Origin: an uncultured Maribacter sp.
GTDB lineage: Bacteria > Bacteroidota > Bacteroidia > Flavobacteriales > Flavobacteriaceae
Direction: 5' to 3'
Assembly (NCBI GenBank): GCA_937125035.1
Contig: CAKZLG010000048.1
Coordinates: 1 to 34,384 of the forward strand
Length of the DNA stretch: 34,384 bases
Every line of letters begins with the position of its first letter. The first letter of the stretch is position 1. Below the pieces are notes generated by a model. That model was given only the letters and a program-made list of their open reading frames with translations. It searched no databases and had not been told where the DNA came from. Position numbers and translations under genes: made by a program. Of this stretch, positions 5,968-28,746 are shown piece after piece.

Positions 5968-7833
5968 ATGAAACCATTTTTCTCCCATTTTAGAGGGGAT
6001 TTTTTTGGAGGCCTCACAGCCGGTATCGTGGCCCTTCCGTTGGCGCTCGCCTTTGGGGTAAGTTCTGGCCTTGGACCCAGTGCAGGGCTGTGTGGGGCCA
6101 TATTCGTCGGTTTTTTTGCCGCCTTGTTCGGGGGCACCAATACCCAAATATCCGGCCCTACGGCACCTATGACCGCTGTGAGCATGGTGCTCATTGCCGG
6201 GATGGTCTCTATGAACGATGGCGATGTGGAAAAAGCACTACCGGGCATACTCAGTGTTTTTATATTGGCAGGTCTCTTCCAAGTAGGTTTGGGACTATTG
6301 GGGCTTGGAAAGTACATTAGGTACATTCCCTATCCTGTGGTTTCCGGTTTTATGACCGCTATAGGCCTTATCATCATCATAACCCAAATGCTGCCCGCTC
6401 TGGGCTACTACCCAGAACAAAATATGTCCTATGTGGATACCTACAGACCAAAGGCCAAGGAATTGCTGTCGCAGCACCTTTTGGAGAAAAAGGCAGACGA
6501 GGGCTTATTGATCTCAGAGCATCTTGAGGAGACCTTAAGGGAACTTCATACCCTATCCGAAAACGATGTTTTGCAACAAGCGCAACAACTGGCAAGTGCT
6601 TCCACCTCTGGGGTCATAGGGGCTTTAAAGGCGCTTCCCGAGGCTTTTAAGAACATCAATGTAATGGAGTTGGCCCTATCCTTGGCCACCATTCTCATTA
6701 TCTTCGGCTTCAGGAAGATCACCAAGACCGTCCCCAGTACCCTAGTGGGCCTGTTGCTCGTATCCGCCACTGCCCATGGCTTTGGCCTTGAATATAGGAC
6801 CATAGCCCAAATACCAGAGGGCCTTCCGTTGCCTAAATTGGAGATATTCACCCAGTTCAACATGGCTGCCATGACCCCTTACATTTTCACCGCACTGACC
6901 TTAGCCTTACTGGGCGCCATAGACTCCCTCTTGACCTCAGTAGTGGCAGATAATATGACCAAGACCAAGCACAACCCAAATAAAGAGCTCTTGGGCCAAG
7001 GGATAGGAAATGTAATGTCTGCCCTATTTGCGGGCCTTCCTGGGGCAGGGGCCACTATACGCACAGTGGTGAACATCAACTCTGGCGGAAGGACTAGATT
7101 AAGCGGTATGATTGCCGGTGTGCTTTTGCTGTTGATATTGCTCACCTTAGGACCGGTAGCCTCAAAAATCCCAGCGGCGGTACTGGCCGGTATCCTGATT
7201 ACTGTAGGTATTGGAGTAATGGATTACAAAGGTCTCCGGGCCATTCCCAGTCTGCCCAAGGATATCCGATGGGGTCCCTTACGGGCCAGCTCAGAAGTCA
7301 TTATCATGCTCACCGTGGTGATTCTTTCCACCTTTTGGGACTTGATCTATGCCGTAGGAATCGGCCTGGTCATAGCCTCCCTGATGTTCATGAAAAAAAT
7401 GGGCGATCTTACCGCTGAAGGTTTCAAACTATCCCCTTTGAACCAAGAAAATCATGGACCACATGAGAACCATTTACCAAAGACCCTGCAAGCAGAGGTA
7501 TTCGTTAAGCATTTAAAGGGGCCATTATTCTTTGGCTCCACCAGTGAGTTTCAAAAAATGGCGGCCCAAATCCCCCCTACGGCCCATACGATCATTATTG
7601 AATGTGGTCTTATGGATTATATGGACCAGTCTGGGCTATATGCTTTAGAGGATGTGCTGATCGAACTGAGAAGGGCCCAGACCAACGTACTGTTTGTGGA
7701 TCTGTTGAAACAGCCCCGTTACATGATGGAAAGAGTGGATATGATCCCAGACCTTATTCCTGAAGCACATGTTTTTGCAACCTTTGGAACCTGTATGAAA
7801 TGGGTGGAGGCAAATACAAAGGACACTGTCTAA
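5968..7833 (+). CDS. SulP family anion transporter with STAS domain
   Basis: 621 aa; SulP core (GLTAGIVALPLALAFGVSSGLGPSAGLCGAI, SGPTAPMT) and C-terminal STAS domain (CGLMDYMDQSGLYALED). Confidence 0.93.
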   Translation: MKPFFSHFRGDFFGGLTAGIVALPLALAFGVSSGLGPSAGLCGAIFVGFFAALFGGTNTQISGPTAPMTAVSMVLIAGMVSMNDGDVEKALPGILSVFILAGLFQVGLGLLGLGKYIRYIPYPVVSGFMTAIGLIIIITQMLPALGYYPEQNMSYVDTYRPKAKELLSQHLLEKKADEGLLISEHLEETLRELHTLSENDVLQQAQQLASASTSGVIGALKALPEAFKNINVMELALSLATILIIFGFRKITKTVPSTLVGLLLVSATAHGFGLEYRTIAQIPEGLPLPKLEIFTQFNMAAMTPYIFTALTLALLGAIDSLLTSVVADNMTKTKHNPNKELLGQGIGNVMSALFAGLPGAGATIRTVVNINSGGRTRLSGMIAGVLLLLILLTLGPVASKIPAAVLAGILITVGIGVMDYKGLRAIPSLPKDIRWGPLRASSEVIIMLTVVILSTFWDLIYAVGIGLVIASLMFMKKMGDLTAEGFKLSPLNQENHGPHENHLPKTLQAEVFVKHLKGPLFFGSTSEFQKMAAQIPPTAHTIIIECGLMDYMDQSGLYALEDVLIELRRAQTNVLFVDLLKQPRYMMERVDMIPDLIPEAHVFATFGTCMKWVEANTKDTV

Positions 7834-9792: not shown

Positions 9793-11451
9793 ATGTCAAA
9801 ACCTTTCTACGATTTCAACAATTTTAAAGGAGATATTACCGGCGGCCTTGTTGCGGGGGTCGTGGCCCTCCCCTTGGCCCTTGCCTTTGGAGTACAATCC
9901 GGTCTCGGGGCCATCGCTGGCCTTTATGGGGCCATTGCCGTTGGTATTTTAGCCGCTCTTTTTGGAGGAACCACTACCCAGGCCAGTGGCCCTACCGGGC
10001 CTATGACCGTGGTTTCCGCCGCCCTGGTGGCAAGTGCCATAGACGTTGCCGGAAGCCTGGAACAGGCCATGGGGATCATCCTGTTGAGCTTTCTGGTGGG
10101 CGGGGCGCTCCAGATTGTATTTGGACTCATCAATATTGCAGGATACATTAAATATTTTCCCTACCCGGTCATATCCGGTTTCATGAGCGGTGTGGGCCTG
10201 ATCATCATCATCCTACAGATTTTCCCCTTTGTAGGGCTGGATTCTGCGAAGTCCACCCTCAAGGTCATGGCCGATCTTCCGCGCCTATTTAGCGACCTCA
10301 ATTGGCAGGCCTTGGTCCTAGGGCTCATGACCGTGGCCATATATTACCTTTTTCCAAAAATCACGAAGGCCATTCCCAGTGCTCTGGTGGCGTTGATATT
10401 GGTTTCCATTTTTGCTTATTTTATACAATGGAACGTACCCATAATCGGGGAAATCCCCTCAGGTCTGCCATCACTGCAACTGAATGGTCTCTTTTCTGTG
10501 GACAGCAGTGCCTATTTCATGGTATTGGAATACGGTATGGTCTTGGCCGTTTTGGGCTCCATTGATTCCCTGCTCACATCGGTCATTGCGGACAATATGA
10601 CCAAGACCAAGCACAATAGCAATCGGGAACTGATCGGGCAGGGAATAGGGAACATGGTGGCGGCGCTGATTGGGGGCATCCCTGGTGCCGGGGCCACAAA
10701 AGGTACCGTGGTGAACATCAATGCCGGGGGCAGGACCCGGTTGTCCGGCGCCTTGCACGGAGCCTTTCTATTGGCGGTTCTCCTTGGCCTTAGTTCTCTG
10801 GCGGCCTATATTCCCTTGGCCGTATTGGCCGGTATCCTTATCCCCATAGGCTTTAAAATCGTGGACATCAAAGGACTACGGCATTTAAAGGTGATTCCCA
10901 AAGCCGACGCTCTGGTCTTGATTCTCGTCTTGCTATGGACCACCTTCGGCAGCCTGATCCAAGCGGTGGGCATCGGCGTGACGTTGGCCGCGCTCTTGTT
11001 CATGAAAAAAGCAAGTGATATTGGTGAAGCGGGTATGCAGGTAGGTACCTTGGCCGGTTTCAACGGGGAAAAACCATGGAAGGATGAAATTGAGTTCCAC
11101 GAGAAGTTCAGGGACCAGATTTATATCAAGCATCTCTACGGACCCCTATTTTTTGGGTTTACATCCCACTTTCAAGAACAACTGAAACAAATTGGCAATG
11201 ATGTGAAAATTTTGATCATCCGTATGGACCGCGTCCCCTACGTGGACCAATCTGGTATCTATGCCCTAGAGAATGCCATTTTGGATCTGGCATTAAAAGA
11301 TGTTAAAGTGGTCTTTACCGGCCTGCAAGAGCAACCTAGGGATCTTTTAGCCTCGATAGATATTATTCCCGATCTTGTGCCTGACACACAGGTGTTCCCG
11401 AACATTGAAAAAAGTTTTGAATGGGTATCCAAGACGTTGAAAATAGGATGA
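9793..11451 (+). CDS. SulP family anion transporter with STAS domain (second copy)
   Basis: 552 aa; GLVAGVVALPLALAFGVQSGLGAIAGLYGAI, SGPTGPMTVVSA, STAS region MDRVPYVDQSGIYALEN. Confidence 0.93.
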   Translation: MSKPFYDFNNFKGDITGGLVAGVVALPLALAFGVQSGLGAIAGLYGAIAVGILAALFGGTTTQASGPTGPMTVVSAALVASAIDVAGSLEQAMGIILLSFLVGGALQIVFGLINIAGYIKYFPYPVISGFMSGVGLIIIILQIFPFVGLDSAKSTLKVMADLPRLFSDLNWQALVLGLMTVAIYYLFPKITKAIPSALVALILVSIFAYFIQWNVPIIGEIPSGLPSLQLNGLFSVDSSAYFMVLEYGMVLAVLGSIDSLLTSVIADNMTKTKHNSNRELIGQGIGNMVAALIGGIPGAGATKGTVVNINAGGRTRLSGALHGAFLLAVLLGLSSLAAYIPLAVLAGILIPIGFKIVDIKGLRHLKVIPKADALVLILVLLWTTFGSLIQAVGIGVTLAALLFMKKASDIGEAGMQVGTLAGFNGEKPWKDEIEFHEKFRDQIYIKHLYGPLFFGFTSHFQEQLKQIGNDVKILIIRMDRVPYVDQSGIYALENAILDLALKDVKVVFTGLQEQPRDLLASIDIIPDLVPDTQVFPNIEKSFEWVSKTLKIG

Positions 11452-25165: not shown

Positions 25166-27064
25166 ATGAGTGACGCTATTAAGCATGAGTGTGGCATCTC
25201 GGTCATCCGGTTATTGAAACCACTGGAATACTACAAGGAAAAATACGGTTCTGCATTTTATGGGGTAAACAAAATGTACCTCATGATGGAGAAACAGCAC
25301 AACCGCGGCCAGGATGGTGCCGGCTTTGCCAGTATAAAATTGGATGTTACCCCGGGCGAACGCTACATGAGCCGAGTACGATCCTGCGCCCAACAGCCCA
25401 TACAGGATATTTTTGCCCAGATCAATGAGCGCATCAACAATGAGCTCAAGGCCAATCCCAATTATGAGGACAATGTGGACCTTCAAAAAAAACACATTCC
25501 TTATATAGGGGAGCTCCTCTTAGGGCATGTGCGGTATGGTACCTTTGGAAAAAACAGTATAGAAAGTGTGCACCCGTTTCTGCGCCAGAACAATTGGATG
25601 CACCGTAACCTCATTGTGGCGGGCAATTTTAACATGACCAATGTAAACGAGCTCTTCGATAATCTGGTGCAATTGGGCCAACACCCCAAGGAAATGGCGG
25701 ACACGGTGACCGTAATGGAGAAAATTGGTCATTTCTTGGATGATGCCGTTGCCAAACTGTACAAGCAGATAAAAAAAGAGGGCTATACGAAACAAGAAGC
25801 CTCCCCACTGATTGCAGAACGATTAAAAGTGGGGAAAATATTGCGGCGGGCCACCAAGAACTTTGATGGCGGCTTTGCCATGGCAGGCCTATTGGGCCAC
25901 GGGGATGCCTTTGTGCTCAGGGATGCTGCCGGCATACGACCCGCCTATTTTTACCAAGATGACGAAATAGTGGTCGTGGCCTCTGAAAGACCCGCCATAC
26001 AGACCGTATTCAATGTACCTTATGAGGAAGTAAAGGAATTGGAGCCCGGGAATGCCATTATCATTAAAAAAAATGGCAATACGGCCGTTAAACAAATCCT
26101 AGAGCCCGCGGAGCGGAAGGCCTGCTCTTTTGAACGTATTTATTTTTCCCGTGGCAGTGATAAGGAAATCTACCAAGAACGTAAGGAATTGGGCAAGTTG
26201 GTGTTTCCGGAAATTTTGGAGGCCATAGACCATGACATTAAGAATACCGTTTTTTCCTATATCCCCAATACGGCGGAAACCTCGTTTTTTGGGATGGTCA
26301 AAGAAGCTCAGAACTACCTGAACAAAAAAAAGGAAGAACAGATTTTGGCCCTTGGGCAAGGTATGACCAGCGAACAACTGCACCAAATTCTTGATGTGCG
26401 ACCGCGCATAGAAAAAGTGGCCATCAAGGATGCCAAATTAAGGACGTTCATCACCCAAGATGACAGTAGGGACGATCTAGTGGCCCATGTTTACGACATA
26501 TCGTATGGCTCCGTAAAAAAAGGGGACAACTTGGTCATCATAGATGACAGCATTGTTCGTGGCACTACCTTAAAAAAGAGCATATTACGTATTCTTGATC
26601 GCCTGCATCCCAAAAAGATCATCGTTGTATCCTCTGCGCCCCAGATAAGGTATCCGGATTGTTATGGTATAGACATGGCCAAATTGGAGGATTTCGTGGC
26701 TTTCAAAGCCGCCTTGGCCCTTCATCAGGAAAAAGACACCATGCACGTAGTAGATGCCATTTATGACAAATGCATTAAACAGGTCTCCACACCCGATAAG
26801 AAATTCATAAACCATGTAAAGGAATTCTATGCCCCATTTTCCGCACATGAGATTTCCCGGAAAATAGGGGAATTGCTTAGTCCTACGGATATAAACGCGG
26901 AAGTACAGATTATTTATCAGTCCATTGAAAGCCTACACCAGGCATGCCCAAAGAATTTGGGGGATTGGTATTTCACAGGTAATTATCCAACCCCTGGGGG
27001 GAATAGGGTGGTCAACAAGGCCTTCATCAATTTTTATGAAGGCAAAAATGAAAGGGCCTATTAG
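25166..27064 (+). CDS. PurF-like amidophosphoribosyltransferase (class II glutamine amidotransferase plus PRTase)
   Basis: 632 aa; candidate nucleophile after a short leader (MSDAIKHECGIS), KQHNRGQDGAGFASI, PRPP loop LVIIDDSIVRGTTLKKSI. Confidence 0.88.
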   Translation: MSDAIKHECGISVIRLLKPLEYYKEKYGSAFYGVNKMYLMMEKQHNRGQDGAGFASIKLDVTPGERYMSRVRSCAQQPIQDIFAQINERINNELKANPNYEDNVDLQKKHIPYIGELLLGHVRYGTFGKNSIESVHPFLRQNNWMHRNLIVAGNFNMTNVNELFDNLVQLGQHPKEMADTVTVMEKIGHFLDDAVAKLYKQIKKEGYTKQEASPLIAERLKVGKILRRATKNFDGGFAMAGLLGHGDAFVLRDAAGIRPAYFYQDDEIVVVASERPAIQTVFNVPYEEVKELEPGNAIIIKKNGNTAVKQILEPAERKACSFERIYFSRGSDKEIYQERKELGKLVFPEILEAIDHDIKNTVFSYIPNTAETSFFGMVKEAQNYLNKKKEEQILALGQGMTSEQLHQILDVRPRIEKVAIKDAKLRTFITQDDSRDDLVAHVYDISYGSVKKGDNLVIIDDSIVRGTTLKKSILRILDRLHPKKIIVVSSAPQIRYPDCYGIDMAKLEDFVAFKAALALHQEKDTMHVVDAIYDKCIKQVSTPDKKFINHVKEFYAPFSAHEISRKIGELLSPTDINAEVQIIYQSIESLHQACPKNLGDWYFTGNYPTPGGNRVVNKAFINFYEGKNERAY

Positions 27065-27155
27065 CGAAAAATAGCACCAGGGCCTGTAAAAGTGTATTTT
27101 ATCGATAAATAGTGCCGTTCATCGATGCTATGGGCTACATCGGTACGGACTCAAT

Positions 27156-27163
27156 TAAATTTG
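27156..27163 (+). promoter_or_regulatory. -7 box of sRNA unit 1
   Basis: TAAATTTG (matches TAnnTTTG), 5 nt before the conserved core. Confidence 0.65.
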
Positions 27164-27168
27164 AGTTT

Positions 27169-27245
27169 ACCATAGCATAAGTAGGTTAAGTTCATGGTAA
27201 GATTTGGGGCAAAAAAGGTGGAGTCTTCTCCACCTTTTTTATTTT
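27169..27245 (+). ncRNA. Candidate small RNA, unit 1 of a five-copy tandem family
   Basis: 41-nt core ACCATAGCATAAGTAGGTTAAGTTCATGGTAAGATTTGGGG (27169-27209) followed by terminator hairpin AAAAAAGGTGGAG-TCTT-CTCCACCTTTTTT. Confidence 0.78.
27211..27240 (+). terminator. Intrinsic terminator of sRNA unit 1
   Basis: 13-bp inverted repeat including GGTGGAG/CTCCACC, loop TCTT, T-tract. Confidence 0.85.
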
Positions 27246-27353
27246 CCCCCTGAACATCTTTTCAATCTCCCTACCGGTCTACGCCATAAATGCCGGTTAT
27301 CCATTATTCGTGAAGTACAACGCTTTGTTAACTTAGTACCTCTTCCTTTCCCA

Positions 27354-27361
27354 TATCTTTG
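27354..27361 (+). promoter_or_regulatory. -7 box of sRNA unit 2
   Basis: TATCTTTG (TAnnTTTG), 4 nt before the core; flanking sequence unrelated to unit 1. Confidence 0.65.
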
Positions 27362-27365
27362 AGAG

Positions 27366-27440
27366 ACCATAGCATAAGTAGGTTAAGTTCATGGTAAGAT
27401 TTGGGGAAAAAGGTGAAGCGTAAGCTTCGCCTTTTTTATT
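27366..27440 (+). ncRNA. Candidate small RNA, unit 2
   Basis: Core 27366-27406 identical to unit 1; terminator GGTGAAGC-GTAA-GCTTCGCC plus T6. Confidence 0.78.
27407..27437 (+). terminator. Intrinsic terminator of sRNA unit 2
   Basis: GGTGAAGC/GCTTCGCC (one G-U pair) with a GNRA-type GTAA loop, A-tract and T-tract. Confidence 0.85.
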
Positions 27441-27559
27441 TGTCGGTAACTCCTGTGGCCTTAAACCAGCCCTCTTGTAAGATAAATTGACGCGTTATGT
27501 ATTTCATCCAAGGATTTGGATGTTCATCCAATACTTTTACCTTTTTAAACAGCTAACTA

Positions 27560-27567
27560 TATTTTTG
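27560..27567 (+). promoter_or_regulatory. -7 box of sRNA unit 3
   Basis: TATTTTTG, 4 nt before the core. Confidence 0.65.
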
Positions 27568-27571
27568 AAGG

Positions 27572-27646
27572 ACCATAGCATAAGTAGGTTAAGTTCATGG
27601 TAAGATTTGGGGAAAAAGGTGAAGCGTAAGCTTCGCCTTTTTTATT
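27572..27646 (+). ncRNA. Candidate small RNA, unit 3
   Basis: Core 27572-27612 and terminator identical to unit 2. Confidence 0.78.
27613..27643 (+). terminator. Intrinsic terminator of sRNA unit 3
   Basis: Same hairpin as unit 2. Confidence 0.85.
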
Positions 27647-27765
27647 TGTCGGTAACTCCTGTGGCCTTAAACCAGCCCTCTTGTAAGATAAATTGACGCG
27701 TTATGTATTTCATCCAAGGATTTGGATGTTCATCCAATACTTTTACCTTTTTAAACAGCTAACTA

Positions 27766-27773
27766 TATTTTTG
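27766..27773 (+). promoter_or_regulatory. -7 box of sRNA unit 4
   Basis: TATTTTTG, 4 nt before the core. Confidence 0.65.
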
Positions 27774-27777
27774 AAGG

Positions 27778-27852
27778 ACCATAGCATAAGTAGGTTAAGT
27801 TCATGGTAAGATTTGGGGAAAAAGGTGAAGCGTAAGCTTCGCCTTTTTTATT
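27778..27852 (+). ncRNA. Candidate small RNA, unit 4
   Basis: Core 27778-27818 and terminator identical to units 2 and 3; downstream spacer diverges completely after about 27853. Confidence 0.78.
27819..27849 (+). terminator. Intrinsic terminator of sRNA unit 4
   Basis: Same hairpin as units 2 and 3. Confidence 0.85.
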
Positions 27853-27969
27853 TTTGAATCTCGGCGCAGCCTGCATTTCATCGAGCACTGCCCTAGTTTA
27901 TTAGGCTTAGGGTGTGGCCTACCACTAAAAATTTCTTAAAATTTCTTTTTTTATTTGCCACAATACCAG

Positions 27970-27977
27970 TAATTTAG
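27970..27977 (+). promoter_or_regulatory. -7-like box of sRNA unit 5
   Basis: TAATTTAG, one mismatch to TAnnTTTG, at the same 4-nt spacing from the core. Confidence 0.5.
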
Positions 27978-27981
27978 TTCT

Positions 27982-28054
27982 GCCATAGCATAAGTAGGTT
28001 AAGTTTATGGTAAGATTTGGGACGAAAAGGGCGGAGACTTCTCCGCCCTTTTCT
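27982..28054 (+). ncRNA. Candidate small RNA, unit 5 (divergent copy)
   Basis: Core differs from units 1-4 at only 3 of 41 positions (first base, C to T before ATGG, last base); terminator GAAAAGGGCGGAG-ACTT-CTCCGCCCTTTTC. Confidence 0.76.
28024..28053 (+). terminator. Intrinsic terminator of sRNA unit 5
   Basis: GGGCGGAG/CTCCGCCC stem with flanking A/T pairing; stem sequence differs from other units but pairing is preserved. Confidence 0.8.
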
Positions 28055-28137
28055 ATGCATTAAAGCCAAAAAAAACCACTTAAAGACTCACTTTAAGTGG
28101 TTTACATCTTAGCAGTGTAAAAAGATTCCGATTTACA

Positions 28138-28746
28138 CTATTTGTTATCGGCGTATAACTTTGCCACTTCGTCCCAATTAATGATATTGAAAAATGCTGT
28201 GATATAATCAGGCCGCCTGTTCTGATAGTTTAGGTAATAGGCATGTTCCCATACGTCCAGACCCAAAATGGGATGACCGCCGCAGCCAACCCCGGGCATT
28301 AGGGTATTGTCTTGGTTTGGAGTGGAACAAATCTCTACTTTACCGCCCTTATGTACACAGAGCCATGCCCAACCGGATCCAAAACGGGTACCCGCAGCCG
28401 CAGTGAACTTCTCTTTAAAGCCCTCGTAGGAACCAAAAGCCGAATCAATGGCATCTGCCAACGCTCCTGTGGGAGACCCTCCTCCGTTGGGGGAAAGAAT
28501 GTTCCAAAAGAGGGAATGGTTGTAAAAACCGCCCCCATTGTTCCGCACCGCACCATTGTCCATGTCCAAATTGGCCAGGATATCCTCTATGGATTTTCCT
28601 TCTAGGGCGGTGCCCTCTATGGCGCCATTGAGCTTGCTCGTATATCCGCCGTGGTGTTTTGTATGGTGTATCTCCATTGTCCTTGCGTCTATATGAGGCT
28701 CCAAAGCATCATAAGCGTAAGGCAATTTAGGTAATTCAAAAGCCAT
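28138..28746 (-). CDS. sodA: Fe/Mn superoxide dismutase
   Basis: 202 aa; [33 protein letters not shown] and [19 protein letters not shown]. Confidence 0.95.

Follow-up and report, generated by a model that had tools for sequence, protein, structure and literature searches.

A Conserved Multicopy Small RNA Array of Flavobacteriaceae with Predicted Two-Block Antisense Sites at the Starts of Surface-Protein Genes

Introduction

Five tandem small RNA units lie between a PurF-like gene and sod in an uncultured Maribacter sp., and related units occur throughout the Flavobacteriaceae. We consider it highly probable that they encode a trans-acting, multicopy antisense sRNA with two seeds, which would repress mainly mRNAs of lipoproteins, exported proteins, and membrane proteins. 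Flavobacteriaceae are major polysaccharide degraders, include fish pathogens, and largely lack Shine-Dalgarno sequences. Our search for functional work on their sRNAs found little beyond Rfp18 and Flavobacterium columnare candidates without Rfam matches. About four-fifths of the family's sampled genomes contain the array RNA, which Rfam does not include and for which concrete targets and binding sites are predicted; base-pairing regulation in bacteria largely free of Shine-Dalgarno sequences thus becomes directly testable.

Results and Discussion

Five Units between the PurF-like Gene and sod

The window (the whole analyzed stretch of 34,384 nucleotides) contains the PurF-like gene (632 aa; 25166..27064, + strand), the syntenic upstream neighbor of the array, followed by five units on the + strand and the convergent sod gene (Fe/Mn superoxide dismutase; 28138..28746, − strand), which is placed in the same way in many relatives. 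Unit 1 extends from 27169 to 27240 (core 27169–27209, terminator 27211–27240) and scores 97.8 bits with covariance model R1; its core consists of a hairpin with loop AAGUAGGUUAAG and a tail, GAUUUGGGG. Fold and covariance model likewise delimit unit 2 (27366..27437; core 27366–27406, terminator 27407–27437), unit 3 (27572..27643; core 27572–27612, terminator 27613–27643), unit 4 (27778..27849; core 27778–27818, terminator 27819–27849), and unit 5 (27982..28053; core 27982–28022, terminator 28024–28053). The 39-nt core string CCATAGCATAAGTAGGTTAAGTTYATGGTAAGATTTGGG has five exact copies in the whole 3.58-Mb genome, and its reversed control has none. A perfect inverted repeat, AAACCACTTAAAG/CTTTAAGTGGTTT, lies between unit 5 and sod at 28073–28103 and is probably the sod terminator.

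The preliminary description of this DNA had proposed five promoter-core-terminator units with exactly these starts, and its account of their makeup was borne out. The cores of units 1–4 are identical and that of unit 5 (U variant, GUUUAUGG) differs at 3 of 41 positions; the −7 box ends 5 nt ahead of the core in unit 1 and 4 nt ahead in units 2–5; a terminator hairpin of 13–14 bp closes all five. The spacers had also been called unrelated, which holds for the contexts of unit 1, units 2–4 as a group, and unit 5, but not within units 2–4, where 27353–27558 and 27559–27764 are 99% identical and form a 206-bp tandem duplication. Units 2–4 are therefore recent copies, and independent contexts are available only for unit 1, units 2–4 taken as one, and unit 5.

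The Units Fold and Are Non-coding

All five units fold far better than their dinucleotide shuffles (z = −4.8 to −5.3; 0 of 200 shuffles as good). Among relatives the terminator pairs covary, the sequence being free to change while pairing is kept. For the 5′ core hairpin, 87.9% of cells were paired in an alignment of 25 diverse cores, compared with 18%–46% when partners were slid, and two-sided changes were seen at three pairs. These pairing counts give the hairpin moderate support, since the core hardly varies. In divergent members (L225, L227, and L228), the 5′ hairpin persists with a changed stem or loop, and AUUUGGGGC is retained.

Because a terminator closes each unit, the units might be read as cis-acting leaders or attenuators, or else as genes for small peptides. 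No open reading frame in the same direction follows the array, however, the next gene being the convergent sod. Nor is any reading frame conserved: the core, though conserved, accepts a one-base indel (GGTAAGATT versus GGTAGATT), and the terminator is free to vary in sequence. We regard both readings as very improbable. The units thus combine a promoter of their own, a terminator of their own, and a non-coding sequence, as trans-acting base-pairing sRNAs do, so far as this can be judged from sequence.

Promoters Differ between Last and Non-last Copies

The −7 boxes follow the TAnnTTTG consensus located at −12 to −5 (PMC9723704). All on the + strand, they are TAAATTTG in unit 1 (27156..27163), TATCTTTG in unit 2 (27354..27361), and TATTTTTG in units 3 (27560..27567) and 4 (27766..27773); the last unit has the promoter CACAATACCAGTA-ATTTAG (27959..27977), with the −7 box TAATTTAG at 27970–27977. 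A TAnnTT box is present in 217 of 225 units drawn from the window and named relatives; in 181 it stands exactly 4 nt before the core. For the majority of the 225 units, the first core base is thus the predicted transcription start, as had been proposed from the −7 spacing; in unit 1 it falls one base earlier.

Upstream of these boxes we found repeats resembling the canonical LytTR operator, which consists of direct repeats of about 9 bp, 10–13 bp apart (PMC11347149). A 20-bp direct repeat fitting the half-site pattern, TTTTATCG...GTTCATCG, precedes unit 1 (27097..27126, +), and LytTR-like direct repeats precede unit 3 (TTTCATCC...GTTCATCC; 27502..27531, +) and unit 4 (27708..27737, +). Before unit 2 a degenerate repeat (27295..27322, +) was recognized by eye only, the strict pattern having failed. 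The promoter of unit 5 differs upstream and has no direct repeat; this form is conserved at the last copies in many relatives. Half-sites like GTTCATCTA, spaced 20–21 bp, occurred before 32 of 60 first, 30 of 58 middle, 25 of 47 single, and 10 of 60 last units, whereas shuffled sequences gave a mean of 0.1. About half of the first, middle, and single copies, then, carry two direct repeats of approximately 9 bp with the 10–13 bp spacing of a LytTR operator, and last copies usually carry another conserved promoter, CACAATACCAGTA. Hence the RNA is common to the copies and the regulation is not. Spacing and half-site suggest that the array may be under LytTR-type control.

The RNA Is Conserved across Flavobacteriaceae

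The covariance model matched 244 of 301 genomes of the family (196 of 238 genera), with one to seven copies each; the remaining 57 genomes gave no match, and some lineages therefore either do without the RNA or have a diverged form of it. When the core was searched with up to three mismatches, nearly all genomes of the same genus were positive, mostly with three to six copies, as was one genome from another genus of Flavobacteriaceae. A 16-mer scan of named genomes found it, with promoter and terminator in place, in Maribacter, Zobellia, Arenibacter, Cellulophaga, and Muricauda/Allomuricauda, and also in Winogradskyella, Aquimarina, Salegentibacter, Flavobacterium, and others. The few 16-mer matches in other phyla (e.g., Clostridium and Aliivibrio) were matches to the 16-mer alone. 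Elsewhere in the class Bacteroidia the covariance search gave no convincing match; by inspection, the two best matches outside the family, both weak (G088 and G330), and weak matches in G376 proved to be terminators only. In the named relatives examined, the array usually lies directly 3′ of the same PurF-like gene, and in many of them sod then follows. Among the units of the window and of named relatives, the GUUUAUGG variant occupied the last position in 52 of 57 cases. The core is thus found throughout Flavobacteriaceae, as expected of the genuine gene that had been proposed.

Two-Block Antisense Sites Concentrate at Start Codons

Two parts of the RNA, the loop AAGUAGGUUAAG and the unpaired tail GAUUUGGGG, vary least, and together they form the antisense of a two-block site, CCCAAAU...AACCUACU. 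We searched 151 genomes of the family with the pattern CCCAAATN{0,11}AACCTACT, which contains no ATG and whose gap limit leaves out the sRNA genes themselves. It gave 57 matches, compared with 25 for the reversed pattern (Poisson p = 3e-8). Of 56 family sites inspected, 25 lay 0–5 nt before the ATG of an open reading frame, compared with 2.5% of random positions; an ATG was counted if it opened a frame of at least 40 codons, and an in-frame stop was present upstream in 21 of the 25. If the matches were independent, the nominal p for this placement would be about 3e-25, a value that overstates independence because some matches are orthologs. The 25 sites represent about ten unrelated gene families. 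Six further matches have the ATG between the two blocks, and five more lie within the first codons of a 42-aa protein.

Neither seed gave a signal by itself. A perfect loop-antisense 12-mer was rarer in the genus than its reversed control, and AACCTACTTN{1,4}ATG alone showed no enrichment in total in the same genomes; the signal therefore resides only in the combined two-block site. The tail pattern GCCCCAAATCTB was discarded because most of its matches were the sRNA genes themselves and the others fell in coding sequence or a mobile-element motif. Only 41 of the 151 genomes contain the exact two-block site, which means that the targets are not the same from genus to genus or that pairing is looser.

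The placement at start codons follows the RNA. All 25 start-codon sites are in genomes that have it; the 28 of the 151 genomes that lack a match contain none (p about 0.006). Outside the family, in the rest of the class, only 1 of 26 sites was at a start codon (Fisher p = 1e-4 versus the family), and this one has no in-frame stop upstream and may be internal to a gene.

We considered whether the RNA might mainly sequester a protein, in the manner of 6S or CsrB, with the loop and the tail as protein sites and the leader sites serving something else. The near-invariant core of about 40 nt, its multiple copies, and the lack of enrichment for single antisense seeds would agree with this. Yet the leader sites are antisense copies of the RNA motifs rather than mimics of them, they stand at start codons with the blocks in the correct antiparallel order, and this placement is seen only where the RNA is present. 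We judge protein sequestration unlikely. Another reading takes the leader motif for a promoter, operator, or translation-start element of the target genes themselves, its complementarity to the RNA being coincidental. Indeed, in some targets CCC lies at the predicted transcription start and AACCTACTT adjoins the ATG, positions where unrelated constraints act. Each block, however, has its match in one of the two most conserved regions of a single RNA; the intervening stretch ranges from a few nucleotides to a hairpin-like insert; one target family has the ATG between the blocks and another has the blocks inside the coding region; and outside the family the site is not at start codons. We consider such a coincidence slightly less likely even than sequestration. 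Conserved antisense sites at the start codons of unlinked genes are a mark of base-pairing sRNAs. The trans-acting sRNA that the preliminary description had favored is thereby supported, as far as sequence goes, by two-block sites at the starts of unrelated genes.

Predicted Targets Are Mostly Surface Proteins

The predicted targets are mostly lipoproteins, exported proteins, or membrane proteins. They comprise small lipoproteins, 7TMR-DISM membrane proteins with a LuxR-type HTH, a type IX-secreted M28 peptidase, a CAP-domain lipoprotein, an LVIVD lipoprotein, a TraN-like conjugation protein, and small orphan proteins. When the AACCTACTTN{1,4}ATG matches in the genus were inspected, a 124-aa lipoprotein and a 56-aa membrane protein emerged as two additional, unrelated families whose genes are preceded by CCCAAAT.

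A loop-antisense match in the array's own genome (G000 contig 42, L245) has the form CCCAAATCTTACTTAACCTACTTGA-ATG and precedes the gene of a 148-aa CxxC protein that adjoins an Nramp transporter gene; the CCCAAATCTTACTTAACCTACTTGA leader is antisense to the tail and the loop together. Among orthologs of this gene from 17 genomes (16 genera), one or both blocks were recognizable and the stretch between them varied, with a hairpin-like insert in two. A clear loop match was missing in 5 of the 17 (L286, L290, L291, L292, and L296), and in single orthologs one block was often non-significant alone. A 19-bp-period repeat of the same half-site as in the array precedes the 148-aa gene in all 17 orthologs; a common regulator of the sRNA array and this gene is possible. 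At L245:1400-1440 the 19-bp-period direct repeat reads GTTTATCTAAA/GTTCGTCTAAA and lies between the Nramp transporter and the 148-aa target.

Predicted duplexes of the RNA with seven leaders had energies of −23 to −34 kcal/mol, which are partly circular as evidence because complementarity was what had initially led to the targets. By duplex energy, four of the seven leaders beat all 300 shuffles; the G452 leader was unremarkable (22 of 300 shuffles as good). By cofold energy, three of the seven, that from G452 among them, were unremarkable (21–24 of 300 shuffles as good). Targets of the 7TMR-DISM group have a −7-like box that ends 4 nt ahead of CCC; their mRNAs may therefore begin at the block bound by the tail. 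In several leaders, short inverted repeats noted by eye flank CCCAA (GGAT/ATCC, GTGAT/ATCAC, and GTTAGA/TCTAAC).

At L403, L413, L420, L421, and L438, exported-protein or lipoprotein genes have their start codon between two sRNA-complementary blocks. L391, L404, L409, L414, and L415 encode a conserved, probably unannotated protein of about 42 aa, MNxxAPNLPKPTFFENK...LTKKIFML, with the two-block site within its first ten codons. At L277:1480-1600 (−) and L260:1480-1600 (−), open reading frames resembling part of an integrative element are followed by a hairpin that varies but pairs (GGGATTTTTG/CAAAAATCCC versus CCGGTTTTTG/CAAAAACCGG) and then by GGTAAGTTATGGTAAGATTTGGGGC, which is almost the 3′ half of the sRNA core; this element is possibly a mobile-element copy or a mimic of the sRNA tail.

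A Model for the Array RNA

In the antisense model we favor, each unit would be an independent gene whose product is a non-coding RNA, about 72–75 nt long, and would comprise a sigma-A promoter, a 5′ hairpin presenting the loop AAGUAGGUUAAG, the unpaired tail AAGAUUUGGGG, and an intrinsic terminator. Acting in trans, the RNA would pair through its tail with CCCAAAU(C) and through its loop with AACCUACUU in short target leaders, next to or across the start codon and in the correct antiparallel order. Such pairing would block the 30S ribosome; repression is the expected outcome because of the position of the sites. With both seeds common to the copies and LytTR-like sites on most non-last copies and usually not on the last, the differing promoters could let the array integrate several inputs and set the dose.

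A wider proposal has, in our estimate, an even chance of being right. It holds that one ancient sRNA, encoded in syntenic tandem arrays under LytTR-type control, is a family-wide riboregulator of the flavobacterial cell surface, reading a two-block antisense code in many unrelated surface-protein leaders, some of which would present CCCAA in a small hairpin loop. A feed-forward loop would then include at least one target, the 148-aa gene, whose own promoter contains a direct repeat of the half-sites found in the array.

Relation to Known sRNA Families

None of the 4,227 Rfam families matched the core at the gathering cut-off. Relaxed thresholds gave weak, terminator-driven matches only; the best, STnc40 (30.5/45 bits), also matches the other strand and lies over the terminator. 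LhrC1–7 of Listeria and Qrr1–5 of Vibrio are multicopy sRNAs with near-identical seeds, differing promoters, and redundant action, and the array had been compared with them. The resemblance holds for layout (multiple copies, near-identical seeds, and differing promoters) but does not extend to sequence, for which the Rfam search found no relation: the core lacks the CU-rich motifs of LhrC, and the array lacks the sigma-54 promoter of Qrr.

The closest likeness is to FopS/GibS of Bacteroides thetaiotaomicron (RF04319), multicopy paralogous sRNAs with a conserved motif of about 41 nt that pair near the start codons of outer-membrane-related mRNAs, GibS using two seeds (PMC11697453). The two groups share their occurrence in Bacteroidota, multiple copies, sigma-A-type promoters, a motif of about 41 nt, an intrinsic terminator, and start-codon pairing, which for the array RNA is predicted. 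They differ in that the 5′ end of FopS, its seed, is predicted to be single-stranded whereas the array core folds as a 5′ hairpin, in that the text consulted describes no tandem arrangement for FopS (PMC11697453), and in that the target genes are not the same. Membership in RF04319 was rejected, as the array RNA scored 23.3 bits against a cut-off of 56 (E = 0.07–0.6), with a suggestive alignment; a search of the array's own genome with RF04319 did not list the array.

Rfp18 of Flavobacterium psychrophilum, another conserved sRNA of flavobacteria, also has a link to exported proteins, but it pairs via its third stem-loop (PMC9723704). The array RNA consists of one hairpin and a terminator and so lacks the three or more stem-loops of Rfp18. 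The literature searched yielded neither the exact core string nor a published description of the array RNA. Our comparisons thus point to a new sRNA family, closest in logic to FopS/GibS and by the tests run not a member; new here means relative to Rfam, FopS, and the description of Rfp18.

Elsewhere in the window, two SulP/BicA-like anion transporters are encoded at 5968–7833 and 9793–11451.
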